From assembly GCF_030123365.1 (NCBI RefSeq), contig NZ_CP126107.1, forward strand, positions 1,969,501 to 2,033,500: a stretch of 64,000 nt of DNA, read 5' to 3'. Positions 33,932 to 53,050 of the stretch are shown one piece after another. The notes under the pieces are model-generated. The model was not told where the DNA came from. It was given only the letters and a program-made list of their open reading frames with translations, and did no database searches. Positions within the stretch are counted from its first letter, which is position 1. Each line of letters starts with the position of its first letter. A program made the translations under genes and the position numbers. The DNA comes from Neobacillus sp. SuZ13 (GTDB taxonomy: Bacteria; Bacillota; Bacilli; Bacillales; Cytobacillaceae).

Positions 33932-33937
33932 AAGAGT

Positions 33938-34199: not shown

Positions 34200-35138
34200 A
34201 TGGTAATCGCAGAAAAACAAAGAGGGAAATTCGAAACAAAAACAAACATGTATGAAGTAAAAGTTCATCAGCAAACAGACCGTCTATACCACATTCAACT
34301 TTCGAAAGAGGCAATTCAAGGGTTTTTAAATGCCGTCAAATCAGAAAACTATTCTGTCCAGCATTTAGAATATACACCATATGCTCGTCTTATTGTCGCT
34401 TCCATGCTATTAGACCAGGTTGGTGAAGAATTCGGCGAGTTGCTTCCAAACATCGTTCATGACCGTGAATCAGGCGGATTTACGATTGGATTGGATGGTG
34501 TTACAAATAATACAGATGAATACGTTATTTTCTCCACTGCTATTTCTTATTTGTTAGGTTCATCAAATTTTGATTCGATGTCAGGTAAATATTACGCACG
34601 CTTTTCTGTCAAACATACCGATAACAGTGACTCTTATCTCCGTCAAGCCTATCGCTTATTTACACTTCATACTGATGGGACATTTGTAGATGAGCCGACA
34701 GATTGGCTGTTAATGATGAAAATAGTTGAAGAAAATGCACGCGGTGGTGAATCTCGATTATTACACCTTGATGATTGGAAAGACCTTGATAAGTTTTCAA
34801 ATCATCCATTGGCAAGCCATAAGTTTACTTACAAAGCACCATCTAGTAAAAATGTAGACCAGGAAATCCAGCGCTTAACCTTCTTCAATTACAATAATAA
34901 GCCTGGTGCATGTTTCATCGACCAATTTGTTTGTCCTGAAACCATTGAAGAAGCTAAATATCTTCGTGACCTTTCACATTCAATGGAAACCGATGAAAGC
35001 GTTACAGAACTCGAACTTCCAGTCGGAGATTTAGTCGTTGTTAACAATATATTCTGGTTACATGGGCGTGCAGCCTTTGAGGTAAATCCCAACTTAAACC
35101 GCGAATTACTACGTCAGCGAGGACGTTTTCATCAGTAA
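34200..35138 (+). CDS. csiD: Glutarate 2-hydroxylase CsiD (Fe(II)/2-oxoglutarate dioxygenase)
   Basis: Hydroxylates glutarate to L-2-hydroxyglutarate, consuming 2-oxoglutarate and O2. The facial triad is H157-x-D159 (LHTDGT) and H288 (NIFWLHGR), and the C-terminal RELLRQRG gives the 2-oxoglutarate arginine. DAMSG-type SNFDSMSGKYYARF and KNVDNSDSYLRQ-like blocks match E. coli CsiD. 312 residues, close to the family norm. The product is used by LhgO, regenerating 2-oxoglutarate. ATG 34200 follows CTGGAGG. Confidence 0.93.
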   Translation: MVIAEKQRGKFETKTNMYEVKVHQQTDRLYHIQLSKEAIQGFLNAVKSENYSVQHLEYTPYARLIVASMLLDQVGEEFGELLPNIVHDRESGGFTIGLDGVTNNTDEYVIFSTAISYLLGSSNFDSMSGKYYARFSVKHTDNSDSYLRQAYRLFTLHTDGTFVDEPTDWLLMMKIVEENARGGESRLLHLDDWKDLDKFSNHPLASHKFTYKAPSSKNVDQEIQRLTFFNYNNKPGACFIDQFVCPETIEEAKYLRDLSHSMETDESVTELELPVGDLVVVNNIFWLHGRAAFEVNPNLNRELLRQRGRFHQ

Positions 35139-35210
35139 AAAGTTCCAAGTGACAAGCACCATCGGAATTATGTCAAAAGGCCAATTATCTTTTTCTGGGA
35201 GTGATTATGA

Positions 35211-37229
35211 ATGACACAGTTTAAACATTTATTTAGTCCAGTTGAAATTGGCCATACAGAATTGAAAAATAGGATTCTAAGTACGGCACATCAAACAAAT
35301 CATGTTATGAATGGAATCCCTACATTGGATATGACTGCCTATCATGTAGAACGTGCCAAGGGCGGCGCTGGATTACTTATACTAGAAGCCGCCGCTGCAC
35401 ATCCATCGGGGATGCTGACAACCAAAACAATTGCTGGATATGATAAAAAGATTGTCCCCGCTTACCTGGAGCTTTCCAATGAAGTGAATAAATATGGAAC
35501 GAAAGTATTTTCACAATTATTCCATGGTGGCAGGGAAGTAGTTTCAAGTGAGTACCGGAATGCGGCCTGGGCACCGTCAGCGATTCCGAGCCTAAGATTC
35601 AGTACGATGCCCAAACCGATGAGTATTGAGGAAATTAAAGATGTAATTGAAGGATTTGCGTTGTCTGCTAAATTGGCGAAGGAAGGCGGACTGGATGGTG
35701 TAGAAATCTGTTGCTCACACGGATACCTGCCTGCACAGTTTTGGTCGGCGCAGACTAATCATCGAACCGATGAATATGGGGGATCGTTTGAAAACAGAAT
35801 GCGGTTTATTATTGAAGTGATGGAGCGGGTCTGGCAGGAAGTTGGGGGGGACTTTACGGTTGGACTCCGTATGAGTGCAGATGAAATGACCATGGATGGA
35901 ACAACCGTAAAAGATGCCGTACAAATTGTTGAATATTTGGTCGAAAGAGTAAGAGTGGATTTTATTGATATCACCTCTGGAGATTCCAGTACATTTAACG
36001 GATCCACACATATTGTGCCGCCATCTCCAATGAAGCATGGATATAACACACCCAATGCATTTAAAATTAGAATGGCTGGCGCTGTGCCGGTTTTCGTCGG
36101 CTCGCGTATTGTAGATCCGGCAGAAGGGGATAAGATTGTGGCAACAGGAAAAGCAGATGTTGTCGGCATGACCCGTGCCTTAATTGTAGATCCTTACATG
36201 CCTAACAAGGCAAAGTCAGGCAATCTTCAACAAATTGATGCCTGTTTAGGCTGTTTACAGGCTTGTATTGGGCATTATCACAATGGTTTAACCATCGGCT
36301 GTGTCCAAAACCCCTCAGCAGGCAAGGAAAATGAAGTGCAAGCTCTTAAGGATAGCCATAGAGACAAGAAGAAAGTTCTTGTGATCGGTGCTGGACCAGC
36401 AGGAATGCAAACGGCGGCTACATTAGATGAACTTGGCCATAGGGTTATTCTGGCCGATAAAGCGGACAAAATCGGCGGATTATTGAATACATTAAAAAAG
36501 ATGCCAATGAGACATGAACTTGCGGAATCGATGCTTGATAATTATATGCGAAAAATATCTACTAGTAACGTGAAAGTTACACTTGGAGTGGCTGTACAAC
36601 CAGAAGATATTAACAAAATTTCACCGGATGCCATTATCTGCGCCACAGGATCAAGACCGTATATTCCCGATATTCCAGGGATTCATGATCACCGTGTAAT
36701 GACGGTGGAAGAGGTGTTTCATCATCCGAATAACCATATAGGGAAAAATGTTTTGGTATTTGATTTTGCAGGTGATTGGCCAGCCATAGAAGCGGCGATT
36801 GATTTGGCGGAAAAAGAGCATATCGTCTCGCTTATTACTGCAAGGCTGCATGTGGGTGAAGGTGTGCCTCAATACTTACGAAATGAATATTTAAAAAAGC
36901 TTTATCAACTAAACGTAAAAATAATGCCTCATTATGATTTAGGAGAAATTAAAGGGGATTCTGTTGTCATTAGAAATCTATTCTCATATGAAAAAGAGAC
37001 AATGGAAAATTGGGATTCTATTATTCTTTCGCACGGTCGTGTACCAAATAGTGAACTATATGAACAAATGAAGAAATTAGCACCTGAAGTATGGCAAATC
37101 GGTGATTGCTTGGCGCCGAGAACAATAGAAGAGGCAACTTTTGAAGGTATGTCTATAAGTTTGCGATTAGGAGTCCAAGACAATGGAAATCTTCCCATTT
37201 CAACTATTAAAGGGCTTCTAACGAAATAA
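35211..37229 (+). CDS. Old-yellow-enzyme-type FMN/4Fe-4S/FAD oxidoreductase (dienoyl-CoA reductase/amine demethylase family)
   Basis: 672 residues. An N-terminal FMN barrel with SHGYLPAQF and HRTDEYGGSFENR is followed by a Fe-S cluster CLGCLQACIG...GC, and then a FAD/NAD domain starting KKVLVIGAGPAGMQTAA. This three-part layout is shared by 2,4-dienoyl-CoA reductase, trimethylamine and dimethylamine dehydrogenase, and demethylases of N-methylproline and dimethylglycine catabolism. The SHGYLPAQF block looks closer to the amine group than to FadH (SEGYLINEF), but the Tyr of the trimethylamine dehydrogenase site is Cys here. It might handle a methylamine released by the Rieske enzyme. The alternative is an enoyl reductase in the CoA branch. 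Confidence 0.8.
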   Translation: MTQFKHLFSPVEIGHTELKNRILSTAHQTNHVMNGIPTLDMTAYHVERAKGGAGLLILEAAAAHPSGMLTTKTIAGYDKKIVPAYLELSNEVNKYGTKVFSQLFHGGREVVSSEYRNAAWAPSAIPSLRFSTMPKPMSIEEIKDVIEGFALSAKLAKEGGLDGVEICCSHGYLPAQFWSAQTNHRTDEYGGSFENRMRFIIEVMERVWQEVGGDFTVGLRMSADEMTMDGTTVKDAVQIVEYLVERVRVDFIDITSGDSSTFNGSTHIVPPSPMKHGYNTPNAFKIRMAGAVPVFVGSRIVDPAEGDKIVATGKADVVGMTRALIVDPYMPNKAKSGNLQQIDACLGCLQACIGHYHNGLTIGCVQNPSAGKENEVQALKDSHRDKKKVLVIGAGPAGMQTAATLDELGHRVILADKADKIGGLLNTLKKMPMRHELAESMLDNYMRKISTSNVKVTLGVAVQPEDINKISPDAIICATGSRPYIPDIPGIHDHRVMTVEEVFHHPNNHIGKNVLVFDFAGDWPAIEAAIDLAEKEHIVSLITARLHVGEGVPQYLRNEYLKKLYQLNVKIMPHYDLGEIKGDSVVIRNLFSYEKETMENWDSIILSHGRVPNSELYEQMKKLAPEVWQIGDCLAPRTIEEATFEGMSISLRLGVQDNGNLPISTIKGLLTK

Positions 37230-37299
37230 TAGTGTAACCTTCAAAGTGTTTTTTCAAATAAGAGCTTGAATGTATGGAATGAGTAGGAGGTGGGAGTTT

Positions 37300-38514
37300 T
37301 TGAAAGGAGCTTTGGAAGGTATAAAAGTATTGGATTTATCGAGGGTACTGGCGGGTCCATACTGTACGATGATTCTTGGGGACCTTGGAGCAGATATCAT
37401 GAAAGTGGAGGCCCCGGGAGGCAGTGATGAAACGCGGGGCTGGGGGCCGCCGTTCCAAAATGGTGTAAGTGCCTATTATTTATGTGCTAACCGCAATAAG
37501 CGTAGCATCACCGTAAATCTGAAAACTGAAGAGGGAAGGGAAATCATTCGCACTTTAGCCAAAGATGCGGACGTAGTGATTAATAACTTCAAAACCGGTT
37601 CGATGGAAAATTGGGCCTTGGACTATGACTCTTTGAAAGCGATCAACCCGAGGCTGGTATATTGCTCCATCACAGGCTTTGGCGAAACGGGACCATATTC
37701 TCATTTGCCGGGCTATGATTACATTATTCAGGGAATGAGTGGACTGATGAGCATTACCGGGAATGATGGAAGTGGGCCAATGAAAATTGGCGTAGCAATG
37801 GTTGATATTTTAACAGGTTTGTATTCTGCCATTTCGATTGAAGCAGCATTACTGGAAAGAGAGAAATCCGGACAAGGGCAAAAAATAGATATGTCGCTTA
37901 TGGATACGGCCGTAAGCTCACTCGCCAATGTAGCAAGCAATTATCTTATATCTGGAGCAATCCCAAGAAGACTTGGTAACGACCATCCAAATATTGTTCC
38001 ATACTCAACATTCAGGGCAATGGATGGAGAATTGATTATTGCAGTTGGTAACAACCGGCAGTTTGCTACCCTTTGTGAAGTAATGGGAATAAGTGAAATT
38101 GCAGCAGATGAACGGTTCCTTACGAATGAAGCAAGGGTTAATAATAAACGTGAACTCACGGGTATTTTAGAAACCCGGCTGAAAATCAAACCAGTCAATG
38201 AGTGGATGGAGCTGTTTTCACAGCATAATATTCCGTGCGGTCCTATTGCGATGATGGATCAGGTATTTAACCATCCACAAGTATTGGCCCGGGAGATGGT
38301 CGTTGAAGTGGATCACCCGGAAGCAGGTTCAGTCAAGCTAGTCGGCTCGCCCATTAAACTGTCAAGAACGAAGACAAAAATAGAACGTCATCCCCCGATT
38401 GCTGGGGAACATACCGTTGAAATCTTGCAGCAGGTGGGATATTCACATGTGGAAATTGAACAATTACAAAAGAATAATATTATTCAAATTTACCTGGAGG
38501 CCTATACGCTATGA
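37300..38514 (+). CDS. CaiB/BaiF-family (family III) CoA-transferase, succinyl-CoA:glutarate type
   Basis: ~404 residues. The family hallmarks are LDLSRVLAGPYCTMILGDLGADIMKVE, NRNKRSITVNLK, and PGYDYIIQGMSGLMSITG carrying the catalytic Asp. Near the C-terminus, VGSPIKLSRTKTKIERHPP resembles human SUGCT (succinyl-CoA:glutarate CoA-transferase). TTG 37300 follows AGGAGGTG by 7 bp and is preferred to ATG 37270, which lies upstream of that site. Its stop overlaps the acyl-CoA dehydrogenase start (ATGA). It would activate glutarate to glutaryl-CoA. Confidence 0.82.
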   Translation: MKGALEGIKVLDLSRVLAGPYCTMILGDLGADIMKVEAPGGSDETRGWGPPFQNGVSAYYLCANRNKRSITVNLKTEEGREIIRTLAKDADVVINNFKTGSMENWALDYDSLKAINPRLVYCSITGFGETGPYSHLPGYDYIIQGMSGLMSITGNDGSGPMKIGVAMVDILTGLYSAISIEAALLEREKSGQGQKIDMSLMDTAVSSLANVASNYLISGAIPRRLGNDHPNIVPYSTFRAMDGELIIAVGNNRQFATLCEVMGISEIAADERFLTNEARVNNKRELTGILETRLKIKPVNEWMELFSQHNIPCGPIAMMDQVFNHPQVLAREMVVEVDHPEAGSVKLVGSPIKLSRTKTKIERHPPIAGEHTVEILQQVGYSHVEIEQLQKNNIIQIYLEAYTL

Positions 38515-39722
38515 ATTTTGAATTTTCGGAAGAGCAGGTAATGTTAAGAAAAATGGTTAGAAGTTTCGTAGATAAAGAAATTATTCCAAATATGAAAGAA
38601 TGGGACGAGCAAGGGAAATTCGATCCGATTATTTGGAAACGATTAAGTGAGCTGGATCTTATGGGTGTTTGTATTCCTGAAGAATATGGCGGCAGCGGCA
38701 TGGATTACAATTCACTCGCCATTGTTTGTGAAGAAATGGAAAGAGGCGATACTACTTTCCGTACCGCTGTATCCGTTCACATCGGCTTAAACAGTTTAAC
38801 ACTACTGCAATGGGGTAATGAGGAACAAAAACAAAAATATCTCGTTCCGCAGGCAAAAGGTGAAAAAATCGGCGCTTTCGGGTTAACGGAACCGGGGGCT
38901 GGTTCAGACGTGGCAGCCCTTCAGACCACTGCAGTAAAAGACGGGGATGACTATATTTTAAATGGTTCGAAAACGTGGATTTCCCTTTGCGATGTAGCGG
39001 ATCATTTCATTGTGTTCGCCTATACGGATAAATCGAAAAAACACCACGGTATTTCCGCATTTATTGTGGAGCGCACCATGCCTGGTTTCTCATCAAAAGC
39101 AATAAAAGGCAAAATGGGTATCCGTTCTGGAAATACAGGAGAGTTATTCTTTGATAATGTAAGGGTTCCAAAGGAAAACCTATTAGGTTTAGAGGGCGAA
39201 GGGTTTAAAATCGCTATGGCCGCACTTGATAACGGTCGCTTTACCGTTGCAGCAGGAGCTGTAGGCCTGATTATGGCGAGCTTGGAGGAAAGCGTAAAGT
39301 ATTGTCATGAGCGTAAAACATTCGGCAAAGAAATCGGCCGGCACCAGCTTGTACAGCAAATGATTGCAAATATGGAAGCTGGATTGCAAATGAGCAGCTT
39401 ACTCGTGTACCGTGCCGGTGAGCTTAAAAATAGGGGAGTACGTAACACAAGAGAAACATCACTCGCTAAATGGCAGGCTTGTGATTTTGCCAACAAAGCA
39501 GCTGATGACGCTGTTCAAATTCATGGGGCTTACGGGTTTTCAAGCGAATATCCTGTTGAACGATTCTTAAGAAACTCAAAAGCACCTGTTATTTACGAAG
39601 GAACAAGGGAAGTTCATACGATTATGCAGGCTGAATATGTTCTTGGTTATCGTGTAGATAAGTCGTTAAATAAAAAACTGCCGGCGTGGCCGTATGAAAA
39701 AGAAACGGTAAAGAGTAGGTAA
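38511..39722 (+). CDS. Acyl-CoA dehydrogenase, glutaryl-CoA dehydrogenase-like role
   Basis: 403 residues with a full acyl-CoA dehydrogenase fold: FGLTEPGAGSD, the GSKTWIS FAD block, GRFTVAAGAVG, QIHGAYGFSSEYPVERFLRN and the catalytic Glu in VIYEGTREVH. It overlaps the CoA-transferase gene by 4 bp. The pair matches a glutarate to glutaryl-CoA to crotonyl-CoA route, but glutaryl-CoA specificity cannot be read. Butyryl-CoA or another short chain remains possible. Confidence 0.82.
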   Translation: MNFEFSEEQVMLRKMVRSFVDKEIIPNMKEWDEQGKFDPIIWKRLSELDLMGVCIPEEYGGSGMDYNSLAIVCEEMERGDTTFRTAVSVHIGLNSLTLLQWGNEEQKQKYLVPQAKGEKIGAFGLTEPGAGSDVAALQTTAVKDGDDYILNGSKTWISLCDVADHFIVFAYTDKSKKHHGISAFIVERTMPGFSSKAIKGKMGIRSGNTGELFFDNVRVPKENLLGLEGEGFKIAMAALDNGRFTVAAGAVGLIMASLEESVKYCHERKTFGKEIGRHQLVQQMIANMEAGLQMSSLLVYRAGELKNRGVRNTRETSLAKWQACDFANKAADDAVQIHGAYGFSSEYPVERFLRNSKAPVIYEGTREVHTIMQAEYVLGYRVDKSLNKKLPAWPYEKETVKSR

Positions 39723-40701: not shown

Positions 40702-41160
40702 TTACTTTGTTTCTTCCTTAATGGAATTCGCGGTGACGCAGCGATATGAGAGGGGGGATGATAAAACGATTGATGTATTTACATTTCCATAAGGAGTTAG
40801 CCGGTCGATAAGCCTGCTCAAATGATCCATCCCTGTAACAGCAGCTTTAAGTAAATAGCTAACCGAGCCGGTTAACCGATGACATTCAACGATGTCGGGG
40901 TCATCGAAAATCCACTTCTCAAATTCAGTATAAGATAATACCTTGAGTTCACTTACCTGAATGTAAACTATTACATCCCTTCCCATGGCTTTGAGCGATA
41001 CCCTGGCACTGAATCCTTCAATAATTTCCCTATCTTGAAGCCGTTTTAAACGTTCCGTAATACTTGGACGACTTAAGGATAATTTCTTCGATAATTCACT
41101 TAAAGTCATCCGCCCGTCCATTTGCAGAAGTTCCAGCAGACGAATATCTAATTGGTCCAT
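40702..41160 (-). CDS. Lrp/AsnC-family transcriptional regulator
   Basis: 152 residues. The N-terminal winged HTH reads LDIRLLELLQMDGRMTLSELSKKLSLSRPSITERLKRL and a C-terminal RAM domain holds RVSLKAMGRDV and CHRLTGSVSYLLKA. Lrp/AsnC proteins sense amino acids. It is divergent from phenylalanine dehydrogenase with a 300-bp AT-rich spacer, so phenylalanine (or another amino acid) control of that operon is likely. Confidence 0.88.
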   Translation of the reverse strand: MDQLDIRLLELLQMDGRMTLSELSKKLSLSRPSITERLKRLQDREIIEGFSARVSLKAMGRDVIVYIQVSELKVLSYTEFEKWIFDDPDIVECHRLTGSVSYLLKAAVTGMDHLSRLIDRLTPYGNVNTSIVLSSPLSYRCVTANSIKEETK

Positions 41161-41461: not shown

Positions 41462-42601
41462 ATGAACGTGTTAGAACATTCTGTACAAACAACTGAATCA
41501 GTTATTGAAAAAATGCATGAGCATGAACAAATTGTTTTTTGCAATGACCCGACAACAGGGTTGAAAGCGATTATCGCCATCCATAATACAACACTCGGAC
41601 CTGCATTGGGGGGCTGCCGTATGCGCCCGTATCGTACAATGGATGAGGCCTTAGAAGATGTACTGCGTTTATCTAAAGGGATGACATATAAATGCGCTGC
41701 TGCCGATGTCGATTTCGGTGGAGGAAAAGCGGTAATCTTCGGTGATCCTGCAACGGATAAAACACCGGCTATGTTTAGAGCTTTCGGCCAATTTGTTGAT
41801 TCTTTAAACGGCCGTTTCTATACAGGAACGGATATGGGTACTTCAATGGATGACTTTATCCATGCCTCAAAAGAGACAAATAACATCGTTGGAATTCCTG
41901 AAGCTTACGGAGGAGGCGGTGATTCATCCATTCCGACTGCGCTTGGAGTCATTTACGGTTTAAAAGCTACGAATAAAGTCGTTTTTGGCACAGATGATCT
42001 TTCCGGAAAGACATTCACGATCCAAGGTCTTGGAAAAGTGGGATTCAAAGTAGCCGAACAATTGCTTGAATCCGGCGCTGATTTATACGTAAGTGATATT
42101 AATGAAGAATCCGTAAAAGCCATTCAAGAACGGGCAAAACAGTTAGGAAGCATTGCTCGTATAGTTAGCGGAAATGATGTGTATTCGGCAGAAGCAGATG
42201 TATTTGTTCCTTGTGCTTTTGGCGGAATTATCAACGATGAAACGATCGAACTGTTAAAAGTGAAAGCGGTGTCAGGTTCGGCAAACAATCAGCTTCTTAC
42301 GGAGAAACACGGAGAAGTACTGAAACAAAAAGGAATTTTATATGCTCCAGATTATATTGTAAATGCTGGCGGTCTAATTCAAGTAGCAGATGAACTATAC
42401 GGCTACAATAAAGAGCGTGTGTTATCGAAAACAAGATCTATTTACACGTCGTTATTGGAGGTTTACAGACAGGCAGAATTGGATGATATCACGACCATTC
42501 AAGCGGCAAACCGGCTATGTGAAAAACGAATAGAAGACCGGAAAAAGCATAATAGCTTTTTCACTCCTATCAAACGTCCTAAATGGGATATTCGAAAATA
42601 A
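41462..42601 (+). CDS. pdh: L-phenylalanine dehydrogenase
   Basis: NAD-dependent oxidative deamination of L-Phe to phenylpyruvate. The 379-residue sequence is close by eye to Lysinibacillus phenylalanine dehydrogenase across its length: [35 protein letters not shown] (K77 and K89), [12 protein letters not shown] and a C-terminal [15 protein letters not shown] is the phenylalanine-dehydrogenase form; leucine dehydrogenases have GNPSPVT-like sequence here. It heads a 2-oxoacid dehydrogenase operon. RBS AATGGAGG. Confidence 0.88.
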
Positions 42602-42627
42602 TTAATTTCTGTATATGAGGTGATGAC

Positions 42628-43695
42628 ATGTCAACAGAATTTCCTATATTTCAAATTGTCGATGAAAACGGCCAATTAATAAATGAGGATTACAAAGATA
42701 AAATAACCGAAGATCTTGTAAAAAAATTCTACTATAATATGGTTCGCATTCGTACCTTTGATCGAAAAGCCATTAGTTTGCAACGTCAAGGAAGACTTGG
42801 AACGTATGCCCCGTTTGAGGGTCAGGAAGCTTCTCAAGTTGGAAGTGCACTGGCGCTTATTAAAGATGACTGGGTATTCCCTACATATCGTGACCATGGT
42901 GCTACGTTAACGTTTGGTGCTGGCATGGCCCGTACGTATTTATACTGGAATGGGCGTGTGGAGGGGTGCGTGCCTGAAGAAGGGAAAAAGATTTTCCCTC
43001 CAGCTGTGCCCATTGCAACACAAATCCCGCATGCAGCAGGGGCTGCTATGGCGGAAAAAAGAAAAGGAACGAAAAATGCAGCGATTGCCTATTTTGGAGA
43101 CGGTGCCACTTCAGAGGGAGATTTCCATGAAGGATTGAATTTTGCCAGTGTGTTTAAAGCTCCAGTAATCTTCTTTAATCAAAATAACGGCTTTGCCATT
43201 TCCGTTCCGATTGAAAAACAAATGAATTCTAAAACGATTGCCCAAAAAGCACTTGCCTATGATATGCCGGGTGTCCGTGTTGATGGAAACGATATTTTTG
43301 CTGTGTATTTCCAAACGATGGAAGGGCTTGGCCGTGCCCGTAAAGGAGAAGGCCCAACTTTAATTGAAGCAATGACATGGAGATATGGTGCCCATACAAC
43401 GGCAGATGACCCGACGAAATATCGCGATCAGTCCCAGAGTGACATAATGCGAGAAAATCGAGATCCTCTTCTTCGTGTAGAACGCTACATGAAAGCAAAC
43501 AACTTCTGGGATGAAGATTGGGTGATGAAGGTCAAAGAAGAAACCGCAACCGAAGTCGAACTGGCGGTAAAAGATATGGAAAGCTATCCAAAACCAAATA
43601 TCAATGACTTATTCGATAATGTATTTGAAAAGCCGACTTGGACGATTGCAAAACAGAAAGAAGAATATTTTCAATTGATCGGGAGGGAAGCTTGA
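42628..43695 (+). CDS. 2-oxoacid dehydrogenase E1 alpha subunit (phenylpyruvate/branched-chain type)
   Basis: 355 residues. The ThDP motif GDGATSEGDFHEGLNFASVFKAPVIFFNQNNG and the TYAPFEGQEASQVGSA and YRDHG motifs are present, with the regulatory-loop TWRYGAHTTADDPTKYR. It matches PdhA/BkdAA E1alpha. Between phenylalanine dehydrogenase and Paa genes, I infer it decarboxylates phenylpyruvate, giving phenylacetyl-CoA with E1beta and E2. Branched-chain keto acids may also be used. The stop TGA overlaps the E1beta start by one base. Confidence 0.85.
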   Translation: MSTEFPIFQIVDENGQLINEDYKDKITEDLVKKFYYNMVRIRTFDRKAISLQRQGRLGTYAPFEGQEASQVGSALALIKDDWVFPTYRDHGATLTFGAGMARTYLYWNGRVEGCVPEEGKKIFPPAVPIATQIPHAAGAAMAEKRKGTKNAAIAYFGDGATSEGDFHEGLNFASVFKAPVIFFNQNNGFAISVPIEKQMNSKTIAQKALAYDMPGVRVDGNDIFAVYFQTMEGLGRARKGEGPTLIEAMTWRYGAHTTADDPTKYRDQSQSDIMRENRDPLLRVERYMKANNFWDEDWVMKVKEETATEVELAVKDMESYPKPNINDLFDNVFEKPTWTIAKQKEEYFQLIGREA

Positions 43696-44717
43696 TGATT
43701 TTAAGTGTAGATAGACCGACAGAGAACCAAACTGGAAAAACTAACGAGTTTACACTCGTTCAAGCCGTAACAGATGGGTTGCGCACAATGTTAAAAGAGG
43801 ATGAGCAAGTTCTTTTGCTTGGTGAAGATATCGGTAAAAACGGCGGTGTATTCCGTGCTACTGAGGGTTTGCAAAAAGAGTTTGGGGAAGATCGCGTTAT
43901 TGATACGCCGCTGAGCGAAGCAGGGATTATCGGAACCTCTATCGGAATGGCTGTCAATGGATTCAAACCAGTAGCGGAGATGCAGTTTTTTGGTTTTATT
44001 TATCCTGCGTATGAGCAGATCATGACACATGTATCACGCATTCGTATGCGAACGATGGGAAGCTATACAGTTCCAATGGTCATCCGTGCTCCATACGGTG
44101 CCGGCATCCGTGCTCCGGAGGTCCATTCAGACAGTGTGGAAGCATTGTTTACACATATGCCTGGAATAAAAGTGGTTTGCCCTTCATCTGCATACGATGC
44201 AAAGGGGCTGATCATTGCGGCTATCGAAGATCCGGATCCCGTCTTATTTTTAGAGTCCATGAGAATCTACCGTGCTAACCGTGAAGAGGTTCCAGAAGGA
44301 AAGTATATAGTCGAAATTGGGAAAGGGAAAAGGCTCAAAGAAGGAAATGACGTTTCTGTTCTTGCATGGGGGGCGATGGTACCGGTAGCCATGAAAGCAG
44401 CGGAACAGGCCGAAAAATACGGCATTACCTGTGATGTCATTGATTTAAGGACCCTATATCCACTTGATAAGGACATTATTGCAGAATCTGTTCAAAAAAC
44501 AGGACGTGCGGTTATTGTTCATGAAGCCCATGCTACAGGCGGAGTGGGTAATGATATTGTTTCCATTATAAATGATACATCATTTTTGTATATGAAATCT
44601 CCGATTGAGCGTGTGACAGGTTTTGATGTACCGGTGCCATTATTTGCGCTCGAAGAACATTATTTACCTACACCAAAGCGGGTATTTAACTCAATCGAAA
44701 AAGTTATGCATTTTTAG
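43695..44717 (+). CDS. 2-oxoacid dehydrogenase E1 beta subunit
   Basis: 340 residues from ATG 43695, which follows GGGAGGGAAG; the longer frame from 43638 lies inside E1alpha. It contains LLGEDIGKNGGVFRATEGL, DTPLSEAGIIGT, EMQFFGFIYPA and HEAHATGGVGNDIVS, the standard E1beta pattern. It forms the alpha2beta2 E1 with the preceding gene. Confidence 0.88.
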   Translation: MILSVDRPTENQTGKTNEFTLVQAVTDGLRTMLKEDEQVLLLGEDIGKNGGVFRATEGLQKEFGEDRVIDTPLSEAGIIGTSIGMAVNGFKPVAEMQFFGFIYPAYEQIMTHVSRIRMRTMGSYTVPMVIRAPYGAGIRAPEVHSDSVEALFTHMPGIKVVCPSSAYDAKGLIIAAIEDPDPVLFLESMRIYRANREEVPEGKYIVEIGKGKRLKEGNDVSVLAWGAMVPVAMKAAEQAEKYGITCDVIDLRTLYPLDKDIIAESVQKTGRAVIVHEAHATGGVGNDIVSIINDTSFLYMKSPIERVTGFDVPVPLFALEEHYLPTPKRVFNSIEKVMHF

Positions 44718-44729
44718 GAGGGGAAAACA

Positions 44730-46016
44730 TTGGTTGAAGTAAAACTTCATGATATTGGTGAAGGGATGACAGAAGGAGAAATTATCCACTATTTCGTCAA
44801 AGTGGGGGATTCGGTCAAGGTGGACCAGCCTCTTGTAGAGGTACAAACAGATAAAATGGTGGCTGAGCTTCCTTCCCCAGCTTCAGGGAAAGTAAAGGAA
44901 ATTGTAGTGGATTATGGTAATACAGTCTCCGTTGGTACTACTCTTCTTGTACTGGAAACAGAAGGAGCAAAAGCGGTTGATACAGATAAGAAACTTGCAG
45001 AAGCAGCTTCTAAAAAGGTAGAGGCGTTACAATCACAACCGCAGCAAACGGCAGTGACCGAACAAAAAGGAGAAAAAAAATTCATCATGGCGGCGCCTTA
45101 CACAAGAAAAATTGCACGAGAGTTCCGTGTAGATATCAACGAAATTTCAGGTACTGGTACTTTTGGGCGCATCACTGTTGAAGATATATACAACTTTGTG
45201 AAAAAACGTGATGAGATCCAATCTCCTAAGGAAATGAAAGCGACTTCAACCGAAGTGGCCGAAGTAAAAACAGAATCTAAACAAGTGATTCAAAAGCAGG
45301 AAGTTCGGAACATAAATGAAACAAATGCAGAAGTGATTCCGTTTAGAGGCCGTCGGAAGCAAATTGCGAAGAAAATGACACAGTCACTTTATACGATTCC
45401 TCATGTGACACATTTTGAAGAGGCAGATTTAACTGAGCTGCTCGCCTATCGAACCGCTTTAAAAGAAATGAATATCCATGTTTCGGCTGTTGCTTTCTTT
45501 ATCAAAGCAATCGCAGTAGCCTTAAAACAATTCCCAGTATTCAATGCCAAGCTTGATGAAGAAAACGAAGTGATTCGTTTAGAAAAAGAATATAACATTG
45601 GAATTGCCACGGATACAGAAAACGGTTTAATTGTGCCTATCATTCATCATGCTGACCAATTATCCGTTCGCCAAATTCATGACAAATTAAAAGAGTTAAC
45701 GAAAAAAGCGCAAGAGGATAAGCTGACGCCGGCTGAGTTAAAAGGTGGAACATTTACCATCAGTAATGTCGGTCCATTAGGAAGTATCGGCGCTACTCCT
45801 ATTATTAATCATCCGGAAACAGGGTTAATTGCCTTTCATAAGACGAAAAAAATGCCTGTTGTGATGGAAAACGATGAGATTGCGATCCGCTCGATCATGA
45901 CCATGTCGATGGCTTTTGACCACCGCGTAGCAGACGGTGCCACAGCAGTAGCCTTTACGAACCGTTTTAAACAATTGATTGAAAACCCTAAGTTGTGGCC
46001 AATAGAACTTGCATAG
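44730..46016 (+). CDS. Dihydrolipoamide acyltransferase (E2) of the 2-oxoacid dehydrogenase
   Basis: 428 residues. A single N-terminal lipoyl domain has its lipoyl lysine at K42 (VQTDKMVAELPSP). The E1/E3-binding domain is MAAPYTRKIAREF...GTGTFGRITVEDI, and the C-terminal catalytic domain holds GTFTISNVG and the active-site AFDHRVADG. Flexible linkers separate them. The start is TTG 44730 behind AGGAGGGG. No E3 gene follows, so lipoamide dehydrogenase must come from elsewhere. Confidence 0.88.
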   Translation: MVEVKLHDIGEGMTEGEIIHYFVKVGDSVKVDQPLVEVQTDKMVAELPSPASGKVKEIVVDYGNTVSVGTTLLVLETEGAKAVDTDKKLAEAASKKVEALQSQPQQTAVTEQKGEKKFIMAAPYTRKIAREFRVDINEISGTGTFGRITVEDIYNFVKKRDEIQSPKEMKATSTEVAEVKTESKQVIQKQEVRNINETNAEVIPFRGRRKQIAKKMTQSLYTIPHVTHFEEADLTELLAYRTALKEMNIHVSAVAFFIKAIAVALKQFPVFNAKLDEENEVIRLEKEYNIGIATDTENGLIVPIIHHADQLSVRQIHDKLKELTKKAQEDKLTPAELKGGTFTISNVGPLGSIGATPIINHPETGLIAFHKTKKMPVVMENDEIAIRSIMTMSMAFDHRVADGATAVAFTNRFKQLIENPKLWPIELA

Positions 46017-46392: not shown

Positions 46393-47769
46393 ATGAAAGA
46401 TGCATCATTGCAAAAGAAGTTGTTGCCGCGGCATATAAGTTTGATGGCCATGGGAGGAGCAATAGGTACCGGGATTTTTAAAGGGAGTGCCGAAACTGTA
46501 TCATTAGCAGGACCGGGAGTGATCTTGACTTATTTGTTCGCAGGTCTATTGCTTCTCGTTGTTATGGGTGCCATAGCAGAAATGTCCATCGTCTACCCGA
46601 ACACAAATATGAAAGGGTTTGTTCAGAAAGCATTTGGTAAGCGCGCTTCCTTTGTTATGGGCTGGATGTATTGTTTCATGTGGCTGGCCGTATGTGTCAT
46701 TGAGATTGTCGTGGCAGGGAGTTTCCTGCAATACTGGTTTCCCTCCATTCCACTTTGGGAATTAAGTTTAGGCTGTGCCGCTTTAGTTATTGGAATTAAT
46801 ATGATGAATGTTAAAAATTATGGGGAATTTGAATTTTGGTTTGCAGGCATCAAAATCACAATGATTATCGTATTTATCATATTAGGTGCAGGTATTTTAT
46901 TTGGAGTCATTTCAAGCAATCAATCCAACAATCTACATAATCTTACAGAGCATGGCGGTTTTTTCCCAAAAGGGTGGATGTCAATCTTTTCAGCGCTGAT
47001 CATTGTTATGTTTTCTTATGGAGGCTCTGAATTAATAGGATTAACAATAACTGAAGTAAAAGATGGAGAACGGATTTTACCTAAGGTGATTAAAAGTTTT
47101 GTTTGGAGAATTGTTTTGTTTTACACGCTGCCCATTCTGGTTATCTGCGGTTTAATTCCTTGGAATGAAATTGCAAGCAGTGATGCGAGTCCGTTTGTCC
47201 AGGTGTTATCCATGGCCGGCTTTAAAGGGGGGGCACACCTAATGAACTTTATTTTAATTACAGCTGTCTTATCTGCAGCCAACTCTGGTATATATGGTTG
47301 TACACGGATGCTGCATTCCCTAGCGGTTGAAGGGGAAGCTCCGAAGTCTTTCTCTTTTGTATCAAAAAAGGGTGTTCCGTTGTATAGTTTAATATTAACT
47401 TCAGTTGTATTAGTCCTCGGCTCCATGATTGCCTTTGTTGCGCAGGAAAAGGTATTTACTTTATTAATGGCAGTTCCAGGTTTTGTCGTATCGTTGGTCT
47501 GGATTGGTATTTGTCTAGCACATTTAAAACTTCGCAATTCCTATCCTAAAGAACCAAGCTTTAAATTGTGGGCCTTCCCATATATAACTGGGATTACAGT
47601 CGTTACGTTAAGTATCATATCAGTAATATTTTTGTTTGATCAACAGAATCGAACGAGCATTATTACTTGTCTCGTTGTTTTAGCAGTACTATTTTTGATC
47701 TCCATCTTTAAGTTTAAAAATGTGGATGAAAAAGATACCATGATAGTAAAAAAGAATAAAATAGTATAG
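46393..47769 (+). CDS. APC-family amino acid permease, probably for phenylalanine
   Basis: 458 residues with 12 hydrophobic segments and the AAT-family start LLPRHISLMAMGGAIGTGIF. GPGVILTYLFAGLL and the NYGEFEFWFAGIK block follow. It sits after the phenylalanine dehydrogenase/2-oxoacid dehydrogenase genes and before paaI-paaK, so aromatic amino acid uptake is the best inference. Its own cre box and terminator suggest separate transcription. Confidence 0.83.
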   Translation: MKDASLQKKLLPRHISLMAMGGAIGTGIFKGSAETVSLAGPGVILTYLFAGLLLLVVMGAIAEMSIVYPNTNMKGFVQKAFGKRASFVMGWMYCFMWLAVCVIEIVVAGSFLQYWFPSIPLWELSLGCAALVIGINMMNVKNYGEFEFWFAGIKITMIIVFIILGAGILFGVISSNQSNNLHNLTEHGGFFPKGWMSIFSALIIVMFSYGGSELIGLTITEVKDGERILPKVIKSFVWRIVLFYTLPILVICGLIPWNEIASSDASPFVQVLSMAGFKGGAHLMNFILITAVLSAANSGIYGCTRMLHSLAVEGEAPKSFSFVSKKGVPLYSLILTSVVLVLGSMIAFVAQEKVFTLLMAVPGFVVSLVWIGICLAHLKLRNSYPKEPSFKLWAFPYITGITVVTLSIISVIFLFDQQNRTSIITCLVVLAVLFLISIFKFKNVDEKDTMIVKKNKIV

Positions 47770-48047: not shown

Positions 48048-48497
48048 TTAATCTTCTGTTTTAATAAAGGACTGATTTTTACGATAAACCATTGCTTCCA
48101 TAGTAGCAATCAATTCTTTGTTGCTATATACACGAATGTAATACCAGCCGAGACGATGGTTTTTCTTAATCTCTTCAGCCGTTGCGGTGAGTGTTTCACC
48201 TAATTTTCCAGCTGACATAAAATTGACGTTGGTTGTTACGCCTACCGCTGTTTTTCCATATGAGTTACTTGCTGCGGCAAATACATAATCTGCTAAAGAA
48301 AAGATTACTCCTCCATGAACGGTTCCATGGTTGTTTACCATGTTTTCGTCTGGGGTTAATTCAGCGGTTGCCGTGCCTGGACCTAGTTGTGTCAGCTTTA
48401 TGCCTAGAAATCGACCATAGGGCTCGTTTTTCATAATGTTGAGAATTTGGTCATAATGTCGTTCGAGAAGTGTTTGATCATCTAGTTGAGTCGTCAT
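48048..48497 (-). CDS. paaI: Hydroxyphenylacetyl-CoA thioesterase PaaI (hotdog fold)
   Basis: 149 residues. The hotdog signature NHGTVHGGVIFSLADYVFAAASN carries the HGG and the catalytic Asp. VGVTTNVNFMSAGKLGETL follows. PaaI releases CoA from hydroxylated phenylacetyl-CoA intermediates and protects the CoA pool when the pathway stalls. It is divergent from paaK, unlike the plus-strand paa operon. Confidence 0.85.
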   Translation of the reverse strand: MTTQLDDQTLLERHYDQILNIMKNEPYGRFLGIKLTQLGPGTATAELTPDENMVNNHGTVHGGVIFSLADYVFAAASNSYGKTAVGVTTNVNFMSAGKLGETLTATAEEIKKNHRLGWYYIRVYSNKELIATMEAMVYRKNQSFIKTED

Positions 48498-48743: not shown

Positions 48744-48837
48744 ATAAGTATGTTACATTAATTTTAACTTCCGTAGTTTTTTTGTTATTAGAAGGCTATC
48801 TATACTATTTATGGAATTAATAAGGAGGATTAGAGGT

Positions 48838-50163
48838 ATGTACAATCCGGAGATTGAAACGATGAACCGTAAAGAATTGGAAGCATTACAAGTAGCGCGT
48901 CTTCAACAGACAGTAAAAAGGGTTTATGAAAATGTTCCTTTTTACAAAGCAAAATTCGATGAGTTAGGGATCACACCAGAGGATATTCTATCGTTAGACG
49001 ACCTCAAAAAGCTTCCTTTTACAATGAAAAAAGATTTGCGGGATCAATATCCATTTGGATTATTTGCCGTTTCGATGGAAGAAGTAAATCGAATCCATGG
49101 ATCATCTGGAACGAGTGGTAAACCGACAGTTGTTGGCTATACCAAAAATGATATTAGGAATTGGGCTTCGATTGTTGCACGGGCAATTGCAACTGCTGGG
49201 GGAAGAAAATCAGATATTTTCCATAATGCTTATGGATATGGTCTTTTTACAGGCGGACTTGGCCTTCATTATGGTGCGGAAGAACTTGGAGTGGCAACGG
49301 TTCCTATTTCAGGCGGTAATACAGAAAGACAAATCACCATTATACAAGATTTTAAACCAAGAGGAATTTGTGGTACTCCATCCTATATTTTAAATATTGT
49401 TGAACAAATGGAACAAATGGGCATGGATCCGCGTGAGACAAGTCTTGAATATGGAATATTTGGCGCCGAACCTTGGACAGAGGAAATGCGTGCTACACTT
49501 GAGGAAAAGCTGAATATTAAAGCAATTGATATTTATGGTTTGAGTGAAGTTATGGGTCCTGGGGTAGCCATTGAGTGCATTGAGGCTCAAGATGGTTTGC
49601 ATATCGCTGACGATCACTTTTTGATAGAAGTCCTTAATCCTGAAACATTGGAACGAGTTGAAGATGGTCAGGATGGTGAGCTAGTATTTACTAGCTTAAC
49701 AAAGGAAGCGCTGCCAATTATCCGTTACCGTACAGGGGATATTGCCTCCATTACGCGTGAAAAATGTATGTGTGGCAGAACACACACGCGTATGTCTCGA
49801 TTAAAGGGACGAACTGATGACATGCTGATTATCCGTGGTGTAAACGTTTTTCCTTCCGAGATTGAGAGAGTACTCTTCCAAATTGAGGGACTGGTTCCAA
49901 ATTACCAAATTCACTTGATTAAAAAAGGAAGCTTAGACAGTGTGGAACTCCATGTTGAAATCGAAAAGCAGCGTTATCAGGAAATTGGAGAAGATTTAGG
50001 ACATGCTGACATTCAAAAGTTAAAACGGAATATTCAACACCATATGAAATCTAGCTGTCTAGTGACAATGGATACTATTATCAATAAACCTGGAAGCCTT
50101 CCACGTTCGGATGGAAAAGCAAAGAGAGTTGTAGATAAAAGGAATCCCGTGCCAGTAGTGTAA
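48838..50163 (+). CDS. paaK: Phenylacetate-CoA ligase
   Basis: Activates phenylacetate to phenylacetyl-CoA with ATP. The adenylate-forming motif is HGSSGTSGKPTVVGYT. YGYGLFTGGLGLHYGAE, IYGLSEVMGPGVA, RYRTGD and a C-terminal INKPGSLPRSDGKAKRV are typical PaaK blocks. ATG 48838 follows AAGGAGG at 9 bp; the open frame begins at 48811. In this cluster it would salvage free phenylacetate, while the 2-oxoacid dehydrogenase makes the CoA ester directly. Confidence 0.93.
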   Translation: MYNPEIETMNRKELEALQVARLQQTVKRVYENVPFYKAKFDELGITPEDILSLDDLKKLPFTMKKDLRDQYPFGLFAVSMEEVNRIHGSSGTSGKPTVVGYTKNDIRNWASIVARAIATAGGRKSDIFHNAYGYGLFTGGLGLHYGAEELGVATVPISGGNTERQITIIQDFKPRGICGTPSYILNIVEQMEQMGMDPRETSLEYGIFGAEPWTEEMRATLEEKLNIKAIDIYGLSEVMGPGVAIECIEAQDGLHIADDHFLIEVLNPETLERVEDGQDGELVFTSLTKEALPIIRYRTGDIASITREKCMCGRTHTRMSRLKGRTDDMLIIRGVNVFPSEIERVLFQIEGLVPNYQIHLIKKGSLDSVELHVEIEKQRYQEIGEDLGHADIQKLKRNIQHHMKSSCLVTMDTIINKPGSLPRSDGKAKRVVDKRNPVPVV

Positions 50164-50293
50164 TAAGTTATTAATAGATAAAATGAAAGCGAATTCACCT
50201 GTGCTGCAAAGTCTATCTTGTTCTATGACAGATCGACTGCATGGGTGATTGGCTAAGAAAATACTATTAAAACAATGATAATAGAAAATATTC

Positions 50294-50341
50294 TTGCCAT
50301 TCATATAACAATAAAATATAATAACGTTAAATACACGTTAT
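50294..50341 (+). promoter_or_regulatory. paaA promoter with overlapping palindromic operator
   Basis: TTGCCA (50294-50299), 17-base spacer, TATAAT (50317-50322). The palindrome ATAACGT-N7-ACGTTAT (50321-50341) overlaps the -10 box and start site, an ideal place for a repressor such as PaaX. A cre-like TGAAAGCGAATTCA with one mismatch lies at 50184-50197. Confidence 0.75.
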
Positions 50342-50361
50342 ATTTAAAAGGTGGTATTAAC

Positions 50362-51318
50362 ATGAGCAGCCTGGAAAAAGATTTAACTGAACAAGAAGAA
50401 TTGGCAAAATTTGTTGCTCGAATTGAAGCGGGCGATAAAATAGAAGCGGATGACTGGATGCCGGAAGAGTACCGGGTCGCACTTATAAAATTAATTTCAC
50501 AGCACGGAATCAGTGAAATTATGGGGGCACTGCCAGAAAAGGAATGGGTTCCAAAAGCGCCATCACTAAGAAGGAAATTAGGAATTATGGCTAAAGTGCA
50601 GGATGAAATGGGGCATGGACAACTGCTCCTTCGTGTAGCAGAGGATTTATTAAAACCTTATGGAAAAGATCGCGGCGATTTAATGCAGGATCTCTTTAAA
50701 GGAGATTTAAAGTTTCATAATGTGTTCCATATGGAAACCAAAACATGGGCTGACGCTGGAATGATTGGCTGGCTCGTTGATGGTGCTGCTATTATCACTC
50801 AAACAAACATGCTTGGTGCATCTTATGGTCCATATGCAAGAGCACTGCAACGCATTTGCGCAGAGGAAGTGTTTCATGCACAGCACGGAGAAGCGATTAT
50901 CATGGCACTTGCGGAAGGAACAGACCAACAAAAACATATGATTCAGGAATCGTTAAATGACTGGTGGGAAGCTCTTCTGATGTTCTTCGGCCCGGCAAGC
51001 AGTTCAACTACCGGTACAAGTAAACAGGATGTAACGATTAAGTATCGAATCCGCACAAGTACAAACGAAGAATTACGACAAAGCTTCTTTACGAAGTACA
51101 TTCCGCGAATTTTATCATTAGGCTTAACCATTCCGGATCCAACTCTTCATTTTGACGAAGAGCAGCAGCTTTGGGTTTACCAGCAGCCTGATTGGAATAA
51201 ATTTAAGCAAATTATTAAAAACAATGGCCCGCGCTCACAAGCACGCTTGAACTTACGGAGAGTCTCTTATGAAAACAATGCTTGGGTGCGCGATGCCTTA
51301 AGTGCGGCAGTTAATTAA
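50362..51318 (+). CDS. paaA: Phenylacetyl-CoA 1,2-epoxidase catalytic subunit PaaA
   Basis: 318 residues of the di-iron epoxidase that converts phenylacetyl-CoA to its ring 1,2-epoxide. Di-iron ligand motifs KVQDEMGHGQ and CAEEVFHAQHGE are present, as are WMPEEYRVALIKLISQH and PSLRRKLG. ATG 50362 follows AAAAGGTGG; the frame is open from 50275 but has no binding site there. It heads the main paa operon. Confidence 0.94.
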   Translation: MSSLEKDLTEQEELAKFVARIEAGDKIEADDWMPEEYRVALIKLISQHGISEIMGALPEKEWVPKAPSLRRKLGIMAKVQDEMGHGQLLLRVAEDLLKPYGKDRGDLMQDLFKGDLKFHNVFHMETKTWADAGMIGWLVDGAAIITQTNMLGASYGPYARALQRICAEEVFHAQHGEAIIMALAEGTDQQKHMIQESLNDWWEALLMFFGPASSSTTGTSKQDVTIKYRIRTSTNEELRQSFFTKYIPRILSLGLTIPDPTLHFDEEQQLWVYQQPDWNKFKQIIKNNGPRSQARLNLRRVSYENNAWVRDALSAAVN

Positions 51319-51336
51319 GGAAAGGGGAAGGGAAAC

Positions 51337-51687
51337 ATGGAGCAAAAGAAGACATTTTATCAGGAATTTGAAGTTTTCAGCAAACGGACACCTTCTGCAC
51401 CCTTTCAGCACCAATTCAGTTTATTGGCACCAAATGCTGAAATGGCGATGGTGATGGCCCAAGAAAACTTTATGCGCCGTGATCCGGTTGCAGATATTTG
51501 GGTAGTGAATCGTGAACATATACGTGGAATGACAAAGGAAGAAAAGCTTACATTGCAACGTTTGGACAATAAGGAATACCGTACAACGAAGGGATACGGA
51601 TACTTAAAGAAAAAATGGCGTCATTACGAACAAGCGATGTTGGATGAAAAGGAAATCCTTTCATGGGCAGGAGGGGACAAAAAATGA
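51337..51687 (+). CDS. paaB: Phenylacetyl-CoA epoxidase subunit PaaB
   Basis: 116 residues, the small bridging subunit: YQEFEVFSKRTPSAPFQHQFSLLAPNAEMAMVMAQENFMRRDPVADIWVV is the family pattern (shown here only as the block 6-55: FEVFSKRTPS...ENFMRRDPV). It overlaps paaC by 4 bp. Confidence 0.9.
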   Translation: MEQKKTFYQEFEVFSKRTPSAPFQHQFSLLAPNAEMAMVMAQENFMRRDPVADIWVVNREHIRGMTKEEKLTLQRLDNKEYRTTKGYGYLKKKWRHYEQAMLDEKEILSWAGGDKK

Positions 51688-52496
51688 CGGAACAAAATGT
51701 AACCAACAATTCTGAATTAAAGGATGCAGTGGTAAATTTATTATTTCAACTTGCAGACGATGACTTCTTTTATTCCTACCGTGGCTCTGAATGGCTTGGG
51801 TTGGCACCGCATATTGAAGAGGATGTTTCTTCTTCCTCGATCAGCCAAGACAGCATGGGCCATGCCGCAATGTTCTATCAATTGTTAGAAGAAATCGGAA
51901 TCGGAAATGCGGATGCACTCGCCCACTTGCGACCAGCAAATGAGAGAAAGAATAGTATTTTAGTAGAACGTCCAAATGGTGAAGGATATTACATGGAAGT
52001 TCCAAAATATGACTGGGCCTACGCCGTCGTTCGAAATTACTTTTACACCGCCGCAAAGAAAGTGAAAATCGACTCTTTGAAAAACAGTTCCTATGAGCCG
52101 CTAGCCAACGTGGCGACTAAGGTCAATATGGAATTGTATTATCACTTGCTTCACTGGAAAACATGGTTTGTCCAGCTTCTAAGTTCAACAGAAGAAGCAA
52201 AACAAAGAATGCAATCTTCGATTGAACAAGTCATGAAAGATTTTACCGATGTTTTCTCATTCGGTACGGATGGGGAAAAAATTATCGCAGCTGGATTAAT
52301 TGAAAATGAGGATGTCCTTAGCGGGCGATGGAAACAACTTTTAGAGCCTGTTTTCCAATCGATCGGTTTAACTGTTCCAGCAATTCCGGTAAATGGAGAA
52401 AGAAATGGCCGTAATTTTGAACATACAGAAGATTTAGTATCAACGATTGAGACACTTTCAGAAGTTTATCGAATAGATACTGCTGCAACTTGGTAA
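51684..52496 (+). CDS. paaC: Phenylacetyl-CoA epoxidase structural subunit PaaC
   Basis: 270 residues from ATG 51684 behind GGAGGGG, overlapping paaB (ATGA). It has LLFQLADDDFFYSYRGSEWLG, SSISQDSMGHAAMFYQLLEE and the later MELYYHLLHWKTW, the PaaC pattern. PaaC supports PaaA folding and substrate binding in the complex. Confidence 0.9.
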   Translation: MTEQNVTNNSELKDAVVNLLFQLADDDFFYSYRGSEWLGLAPHIEEDVSSSSISQDSMGHAAMFYQLLEEIGIGNADALAHLRPANERKNSILVERPNGEGYYMEVPKYDWAYAVVRNYFYTAAKKVKIDSLKNSSYEPLANVATKVNMELYYHLLHWKTWFVQLLSSTEEAKQRMQSSIEQVMKDFTDVFSFGTDGEKIIAAGLIENEDVLSGRWKQLLEPVFQSIGLTVPAIPVNGERNGRNFEHTEDLVSTIETLSEVYRIDTAATW

Positions 52497-52522
52497 TGAA
52501 CATATAGAAAAGAGGTGTGATC

Positions 52523-53023
52523 ATGCAAATGTCTGTAATTTCACTGGAAAAGCAGGTATTAGGAGTACTGGATGAAGTGAAAGATCCTGAAATCGATACA
52601 GTGAGTATTATCGACCTAGGTATGGTAGAGGAAGTAATGGCCGAAAACGGTGTAGTTGAAATAAAAATCCTGCCAACCTTTTTAGGCTGCCCGGCACTTA
52701 GCATTATAAAGAATAATATCGAAAAGGCAGTTAATGCCATAGAGGAAGTACAAAAGGTTGAGGTGAAATTTATTAACCACCCGCCCTGGACGTCCGACCG
52801 TATATCTGAAAAAGGGAGACAAGGGCTAAAGGCATTCGGAATTGCTCCTCCACCTCGTTTTCTGGACAGTGACGGATCGTGGCATGTTGACTGCCCGTAT
52901 TGCGGTTCCACCTATGTGACCATGGACAATATCTTTGGACCAACGGCTTGCAGAAGTATTTTGTATTGTAAAAGTTGTAAAAACCCTTTTGAAGCAATGA
53001 AACCGATTTCAACTTTAATGTAA
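52523..53023 (+). CDS. paaD: PaaD, Fe-S/di-iron assembly factor for the epoxidase
   Basis: 166 residues. The N-terminal MIP18/DUF59 domain has VKDPEIDTVSIIDLGMV and PTFLGCPALS, and the C-terminal zinc domain has CPYCGS...CRSILYCKSCKNPFEAMKP. PaaD matures the epoxidase cluster. ATG 52523 follows AAGAGGTG; the GTG at 52517 lies inside that site. Confidence 0.9.
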   Translation: MQMSVISLEKQVLGVLDEVKDPEIDTVSIIDLGMVEEVMAENGVVEIKILPTFLGCPALSIIKNNIEKAVNAIEEVQKVEVKFINHPPWTSDRISEKGRQGLKAFGIAPPPRFLDSDGSWHVDCPYCGSTYVTMDNIFGPTACRSILYCKSCKNPFEAMKPISTLM

Positions 53024-53050
53024 ATAAAGAGAATGTGAGGAGAAACGATT

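Follow-up and report, generated by a model that had tools for sequence, protein, structure and literature searches.

A candidate phenylpyruvate dehydrogenase operon beside the phenylacetyl-CoA pathway genes of Neobacillus sp. SuZ13

How does phenylalanine reach the phenylacetyl-coenzyme A (Paa) pathway in Neobacillus sp. SuZ13? The question is raised by an operon on contig NZ_CP126107.1, located at positions 41462–46016 of a 64,000-nucleotide stretch (1,969,501 to 2,033,500 of the contig), which is called the window here and whose numbering is used throughout. An earlier note on this DNA had proposed that the operon couples a phenylalanine dehydrogenase (PheDH) to a 2-oxoacid dehydrogenase complex of its own, composed of E1alpha, E1beta and E2 subunits, and that phenylalanine is thereby converted to phenylpyruvate and then directly to phenylacetyl-CoA. 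Judged from sequence, the operon quite probably encodes a catabolic phenylpyruvate (arylpyruvate) dehydrogenase system that feeds the Paa pathway.

The four open reading frames (ORFs) were found where the earlier note had placed them, all on the forward strand and all intact. The PheDH gene (41462–42601) encodes 379 amino acids with the ELFV_dehydrog_N and ELFV_dehydrog domains (PF02812, PF00208) and is followed, after 26 bases, by the gene of E1alpha (42628–43695), the proposed phenylpyruvate dehydrogenase subunit, which carries an E1_dh domain (PF00676) with a GDG...NN thiamine motif. The E1beta gene (Transket_pyr and Transketolase_C) occupies 43695–44717 within an open frame of 43638–44717, and its start is most likely the ATG at 43695, which overlaps the E1alpha stop (TGATGA) and has GGGAGGG upstream. 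The E2 acyltransferase gene (44730–46016) begins with a TTG codon at 44730, preceded by AGGAGGGG, and its product combines Biotin_lipoyl (PF00364), E3_binding (PF02817) and 2-oxoacid_dh (PF00198) domains, and contains a DKM motif (residue 41) and an HRVADG motif (residue 398). All four proteins score above the Pfam cut-offs, the E3-binding domain of E2 included. The operon also lacks an E3 (lipoamide dehydrogenase) gene, as had been claimed; an amino acid permease gene comes next after E2. An Rfam scan of the 64-kb window returned zero matches, and, between 40600 and 48900, a promoter scan was uninformative (25 sites against 21.9 expected) and a terminator scan gave a weak excess (12 against 6.8).

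The first enzyme has its closest named matches in Bacillus sp., Neobacillus and Priestia, and the protein from Bacillus badius NBRC 15713 (locus L017) shares 73% identity with it. For the B. badius PheDH, 4 catalytic residues and 10 hydrophobic residues of the pocket have been published (PMC8543943). All 14 are identical in the window protein, with the numbering offset by one. The leucine dehydrogenase (LeuDH) of the same genome, 48% identical to the window PheDH, has L, A, T and V at the positions of F85, G122, V143 and L305; similarly, G122 and L305 correspond to A113 and V291 in the leucine dehydrogenase of PDB entry 6acf. Positions equivalent to G122 and L305 are presumably those that switch specificity between PheDH and LeuDH. 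Among 136 homologous ORFs of at least 60% identity, which were taken from the fetched loci with duplicates included, the former position is G in all 136 and the latter is L in 135 and I in one. The best NCBIfam match of the protein is the tryptophan dehydrogenase ScyB, which scores 374 bits where the cut-off is 600. By its residues, the pocket is of the phenylalanine type and not of the leucine type.

The complex that follows is the third of its kind in the genome. Five E1_dh matches were found there, namely a branched-chain 2-oxoacid dehydrogenase (BKD, locus L001), a pyruvate dehydrogenase (PDH, locus L002), the window complex (L003) and two long ORFs of 961 and 672 amino acids. The PDH locus lies elsewhere and has its own E3. 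The BKD locus, also elsewhere, comprises a sigma-54-type regulator, Ptb, a LeuDH-type dehydrogenase, Buk, a dihydrolipoyl dehydrogenase (lpdV), E1alpha, E1beta and E2. A tree of E1alpha was built from 73 sequences (the window and 72 of 125 distinct rows, the PheDH-linked ones being sampled), in which L001 and L002 are the labels confirmed by their operons and the other PDH and BKD labels were given by identity and length. Seven PDH sequences fall on one side of a branch (support 100/100), nine BKD sequences do likewise (98/90), and the other 57, the window included, lie beyond a branch with 95/86 support, in a tree that carries a warning of long branches meeting and in which one sequence labelled BKD (L180) is very long-branched. 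The window E1alpha thus groups outside the BKD sequences, and beside, not inside, the PDH sequences. The active site of E1 lies at the E1alpha–E1beta interface.

Is the association of PheDH with this complex accidental? From 260 relatives, the 80 loci most similar in PheDH were named and compared, a sample that is hence biased towards this PheDH. The four genes are all present in 75 of these 80 loci, and the arrangement PheDH–E1alpha–E1beta–E2 occurs more than chance would give, because it forms a contiguous run in 72. The genes are complete but not in one run in L020, L029 and L041, and one or more of them is missing in L037, L058, L061, L065 and L083. Of the 80 loci, 60 carry an E3 gene, identified by matching a portion of the L128 E3. 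A permease of the window type (at least 70% identity) is present in 12, none of them with E3, and three of the 75 four-gene loci have neither. The lack of E3 is mainly a trait of the window's clade. Different complexes often use one E3 in common, so that its presence in the operon is no strict requirement for a complex of this kind. The fetched stretch includes at least one paa gene (at least 55% identity) in 62 of the 80 loci and three or more in 46; it also holds a nitronate-monooxygenase-like gene in 60, and an ABC importer is found in 45. One order that is common in the relatives is paa genes, paaX, nitronate-monooxygenase-like gene, ABC importer, PheDH, E1alpha, E1beta, E2 and E3.

The complex is also associated with the Paa pathway at the level of whole genomes. 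In a scan of the order covering 348 genomes (E1alpha at E<=1e-115, PaaA at E<=1e-80, PaaK at E<=1e-110), E1alpha was found in 144 genomes, PaaA in 147 and PaaK in 120. E1alpha and PaaA occurred together in 136, E1alpha alone in 8, PaaA alone in 11 and neither in 193. A scan of the family (193 genomes) gave 81, 1, 11 and 100, respectively, and for E1alpha and PheDH it gave 80 genomes with both, 2 and 2 with one of them, and 109 with neither. The corresponding phi values, 0.89 for E1alpha and PaaA in the order and 0.96 for E1alpha and PheDH in the family, are inflated by shared ancestry. In the family scan, E1alpha matches of 43–50% identity (PDH-like by identity) and PaaK matches of 33–40% identity were excluded, and two genomes, G066 with E1alpha in two pieces and G162 with a partial one, were counted as positive. 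In the order scans, the best 4–6 first-look candidates per genome were scored, so absences there are weaker.

If the complex supplies phenylacetyl-CoA by itself, are there genomes that have it together with the pathway and lack the ligase PaaK? The complex and PaaA without a PaaK of at least 60% identity were found in 20 of 81 genomes of the family scan, and without PaaK at the threshold in 25 of 136 genomes of the order scan. When both scans were united, the 227 genomes with PaaA divided into 44 with the complex and without a close PaaK, 161 that have the complex as well as PaaK, 19 with PaaK alone and 3 that have neither of them. A search with the profile TIGR02155 (E<=1e-20) in 20 of the 44 gave no match in 11 genomes and matches of 112–131 bits in 6; five PaaK-bearing comparison genomes scored 619–654 bits, and the window's own protein was the only one above the model cut-off. 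Furthermore, none of the 20 loci fetched from these 20 genomes contains paaK, and 18 of them contain paaA together with PheDH, E1alpha and E1beta, the exceptions being L126 (no paaA on a 9.4-kb stretch) and L132 (no PheDH).

The route from phenylalanine through phenylpyruvate to phenylacetyl-CoA is therefore supported on a comparative basis by the PheDH-type pocket, the third complex, the co-occurrence with PaaA and the 44 of 227 genomes without a close PaaK. As predicted from the enzyme families, PheDH would oxidatively deaminate phenylalanine to phenylpyruvate, which the E1 subunits would decarboxylate on thiamine diphosphate, loading E2's lipoyl arm with the phenylacetyl group. E2 would transfer it to CoA, and the lipoyl arm would be reoxidised by an E3 that may be borrowed from PDH or BKD in the window's clade and that would be the one encoded beside E2 in most of the named relatives. 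Phenylacetyl-CoA would then enter the Paa pathway directly, bypassing the PaaK step. The substrate of E1 and E2 is likewise suggested by this context. PaaK converts ATP to AMP and pyrophosphate (PMC7497051), a reaction that would be saved here. As paaK lies within the same island, it probably serves external phenylacetate.

Several observations weigh against this reading. PaaK is missing no more often with the complex (25/136) than without it (3/11) in the order scan; the argument is thus that genomes keep the pathway together with this entry, and not that the two entries exclude one another. A distant PaaK-like ligase (295–314 bits) is present in three of the 20 profile-checked genomes, in which the search did not extend to other CoA ligases. 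Eight genomes of the order scan have the complex and no PaaA was found in them. Three PaaA genomes (G295, G317 and G432) show neither the complex nor a close PaaK, so the pathway is entered in some other way there, or one of the two was overlooked by the searches. In favour of the reading, no indolepyruvate ferredoxin oxidoreductase (IOR) exceeded the TIGR03336 cut-off in 21 genomes (20 without a close PaaK and the genome of the window, G000); against it, weak matches occur in all 21, the best at 129.5 against 650.9 bits. A biopterin-hydroxylase match was obtained in three of the 21 (G000, G029 and G030). In G000 it is a protein of 583 amino acids encoded outside the window (L183, 806–2557), with two biopterin-hydroxylase stretches, and a second phenylalanine route through it is possible. 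An aldehyde route for phenylalanine may also operate in this genome.

Two familiar enzymes could in principle account for the complex. Passing as a spare pyruvate dehydrogenase, with PheDH a mere neighbour, it would fit the finding, itself a point against the phenylpyruvate reading, that E1alpha exceeds the NCBIfam PDH model TIGR03181 (473.6 against 411.35 bits), and E1alpha and E1beta have PDH E1 subunits as their best PDB matches (1w85/3duf). The genome, however, has its PDH with its own E3 elsewhere, whose E1alpha scores alike on the model (476.9 bits), the window E1alpha belongs to a separate group of the tree, and the linkage to PheDH and paa is conserved, so that we find this explanation scarcely credible. 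A second BKD, with the neighbouring dehydrogenase acting on leucine-type substrates, receives very little credence from us either. One argument for it comes from genome G234, which has three E1alpha proteins of the window's group (L146, L147 and L148) besides one placed with PDH and one with BKD; there, an E1alpha 75–76% identical to that of the window adjoins Ptb- and Buk-like genes in a bkd-like context, which also speaks against a phenylpyruvate dehydrogenase. Additionally, the best PDB match of PheDH is leucine dehydrogenase 6acf, at 385.6 bits. Against this stand the ptb-LeuDH-buk-lpdV-bkdAA-AB-B operon already present in the same genome, the position of E1alpha outside the BKD sequences, the pocket of PheDH and a co-occurrence that is with PaaA. 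It is possible that the Ptb/Buk-linked homologue of G234 is an ATP-yielding variant. A second BKD or PDH was accordingly set aside as the principal reading, both enzymes being found elsewhere in the genome and the E1 group being separate.

A third alternative concerns the range of the enzyme rather than its kind. The complex could be a broader arylpyruvate dehydrogenase, acting on phenylpyruvate, 4-hydroxyphenylpyruvate and indolepyruvate, or a general maker of arylacetyl-CoA or arylacetate rather than a feeder of the Paa pathway. In the genomes without PaaA, each of the eight loci (L136–L143) has a HisC-like aminotransferase no more than 7 kb away, and in several of these loci an adjacent membrane transporter looks, as we take it, NhaC-like. 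PheDH together with a HisC-like aminotransferase within 7 kb was counted for 27 of 168 E1alpha rows, duplicates included, and the binding protein of the relatives' ABC importer is nearest the tryptophan-binding TrpX model, at 277 bits, below the cut-off of 390. On the other side, PaaA is present in 136 of the 144 complex-bearing genomes of the order scan, and the complex directly follows PheDH in the 72 contiguous loci; moreover, the two aminotransferases that were scanned, one of them from these eight loci, both pass the HisC model and may therefore be plain histidine-synthesis genes. We regard a broader range as unlikely, and a phenylpyruvate dehydrogenase feeding the Paa pathway is retained.

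The surroundings of the operon in the window can now be described. Adjacency to the paa genes, as the earlier note had it, was borne out, with the island lying in the same window from 48048 on. A gene for an Lrp/AsnC-type regulator (40702–41160, reverse strand; AsnC_trans_reg and HTH_AsnC-type domains over the Pfam cut-offs) diverges from the operon, which it may regulate, and a gene of this type is found at the same place in close relatives, e.g., L006, L007 and L013. The permease gene following E2 (46393–47769, forward strand, PF00324) encodes a member of the APC family of amino acid permeases that probably imports aromatic amino acids. Loci L150 and L151 have this permease (80%) and the Lrp-type protein (63–64%) together with a complex in which E1alpha reaches just 55% identity. 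The island itself begins with a gene for a PaaI-like hotdog thioesterase on the reverse strand (48048–48497), which reaches 110.1 bits on TIGR02286, under the cut-off of 118.9, and passes TIGR00369. On the forward strand follow paaK, for phenylacetate-CoA ligase (48811–50163; TIGR02155, 654.5 bits, cut-off 646.3), and a run at 50275–58577 composed of paaA, paaB, paaC, paaD, an EthD ORF, paaF-like and paaG-like hydratase genes, and genes of an aldehyde dehydrogenase, a 3-hydroxyacyl-CoA dehydrogenase and a thiolase. A second enoyl-CoA hydratase-like gene and paaX occupy 58716–60459 on the same strand (paaX at 59563–60459; TIGR02277, 330.5 bits, cut-off 264.55). The NCBIfam cut-offs are reached by paaK, paaA, paaC, paaD and paaX, and paaB reaches a Pfam cut-off. 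For the gene at 54134–54907, PaaG is the best match, below its cut-off. Among the 44 NCBIfam matches of the aldehyde dehydrogenase (54923–56434), the best 25 all fall short of the cut-off; a PaaZ-like role is suggested for the protein. The small EthD-domain ORF lies at 53051–53353, between paaD and the paaF-like gene, and a nitronate-monooxygenase-like gene (60551–61501) comes after paaX. Upstream of the operon, the block at 26352–39722 contains genes for an ELFV dehydrogenase, an amino acid permease, an SSF symporter, an aldehyde dehydrogenase, a DAO-type oxidoreductase, CsiD, an old-yellow-enzyme-type flavoprotein, a CaiB-type CoA transferase and an acyl-CoA dehydrogenase; we take it to resemble a lysine/glutarate catabolic island.

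How does the proposed system compare with those already described? PglB/PglC of Streptomyces pristinaespiralis, from pristinamycin biosynthesis, is named a phenylpyruvate dehydrogenase in the available text of one paper (PMC10685826) and is described in that of another as a PDH-like complex whose product is phenylacetyl-CoA (PMC7089894). The likeness lies in a PDH-like alpha/beta pair for which the conversion of phenylpyruvate to phenylacetyl-CoA is proposed in the text available. As far as a comparison by description goes, PglB/PglC differs in being biosynthetic (phenylglycine), whereas the window complex stands with PheDH and E2, has E3 in its relatives and lies beside paa. In Phaeobacter inhibens, a producer of tropodithietic acid, phenylalanine is converted to phenylacetyl-CoA via phenylpyruvate, and phenylacetate is skipped, according to the text available (PMC7497051). 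This skipping of phenylacetate is what is proposed for the window operon as well. The direct conversion in Phaeobacter is reportedly due to a ferredoxin-dependent indolepyruvate oxidoreductase, which sets it apart, as no such enzyme passed the cut-off in the 21 genomes searched here. The Bacillus ptb-bcd-buk-lpdV-bkd operon similarly unites an amino acid dehydrogenase with a 2-oxoacid dehydrogenase complex; it differs in its LeuDH and Ptb/Buk, and a separate copy of it is present in this genome. Other proposals, seen in the accessible parts of the respective papers, are a phenylethylamine route (PMC9239090) and an alternative oxepin-CoA hydrolase (PMC9007349). In openly licensed literature, covered by titles and the openings of abstracts, no report of a catabolic PheDH-linked phenylpyruvate dehydrogenase complex in Bacillus was found. 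The chemistry is thus already known from pristinamycin biosynthesis, and it is the catabolic, PheDH-linked version that appears to be new.

The PheDH of B. badius NBRC 15713 is known as a biocatalyst, and no physiological partner is named for it in the available portion of PMC8543943; its neighbours in L017 are paa genes and the genes of E1alpha, E1beta, E2 and E3. We lean, with some reserve, towards a wider view in which a hitherto undescribed arylpyruvate dehydrogenase class of single origin, present in about two-fifths of the sampled order (144/348), would be the regular way by which phenylalanine enters the Paa pathway there, would make PaaK dispensable and would explain why these bacilli have the PheDHs that biotechnology has long used, with one lineage perhaps coupling a close homologue to Ptb/Buk for ATP. 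Since E1alpha passes TIGR03181, automatic annotation would probably misname the complex as pyruvate dehydrogenase, and this likely pipeline annotation would be corrected if the proposal is true. The genomes that carry paa and the complex without a close paaK make the question testable by growth and deletion. If the proposal holds, the well-known bacillar PheDHs would gain a physiological partner, and an ATP-sparing entry would be added to the phenylacetyl-CoA pathway.

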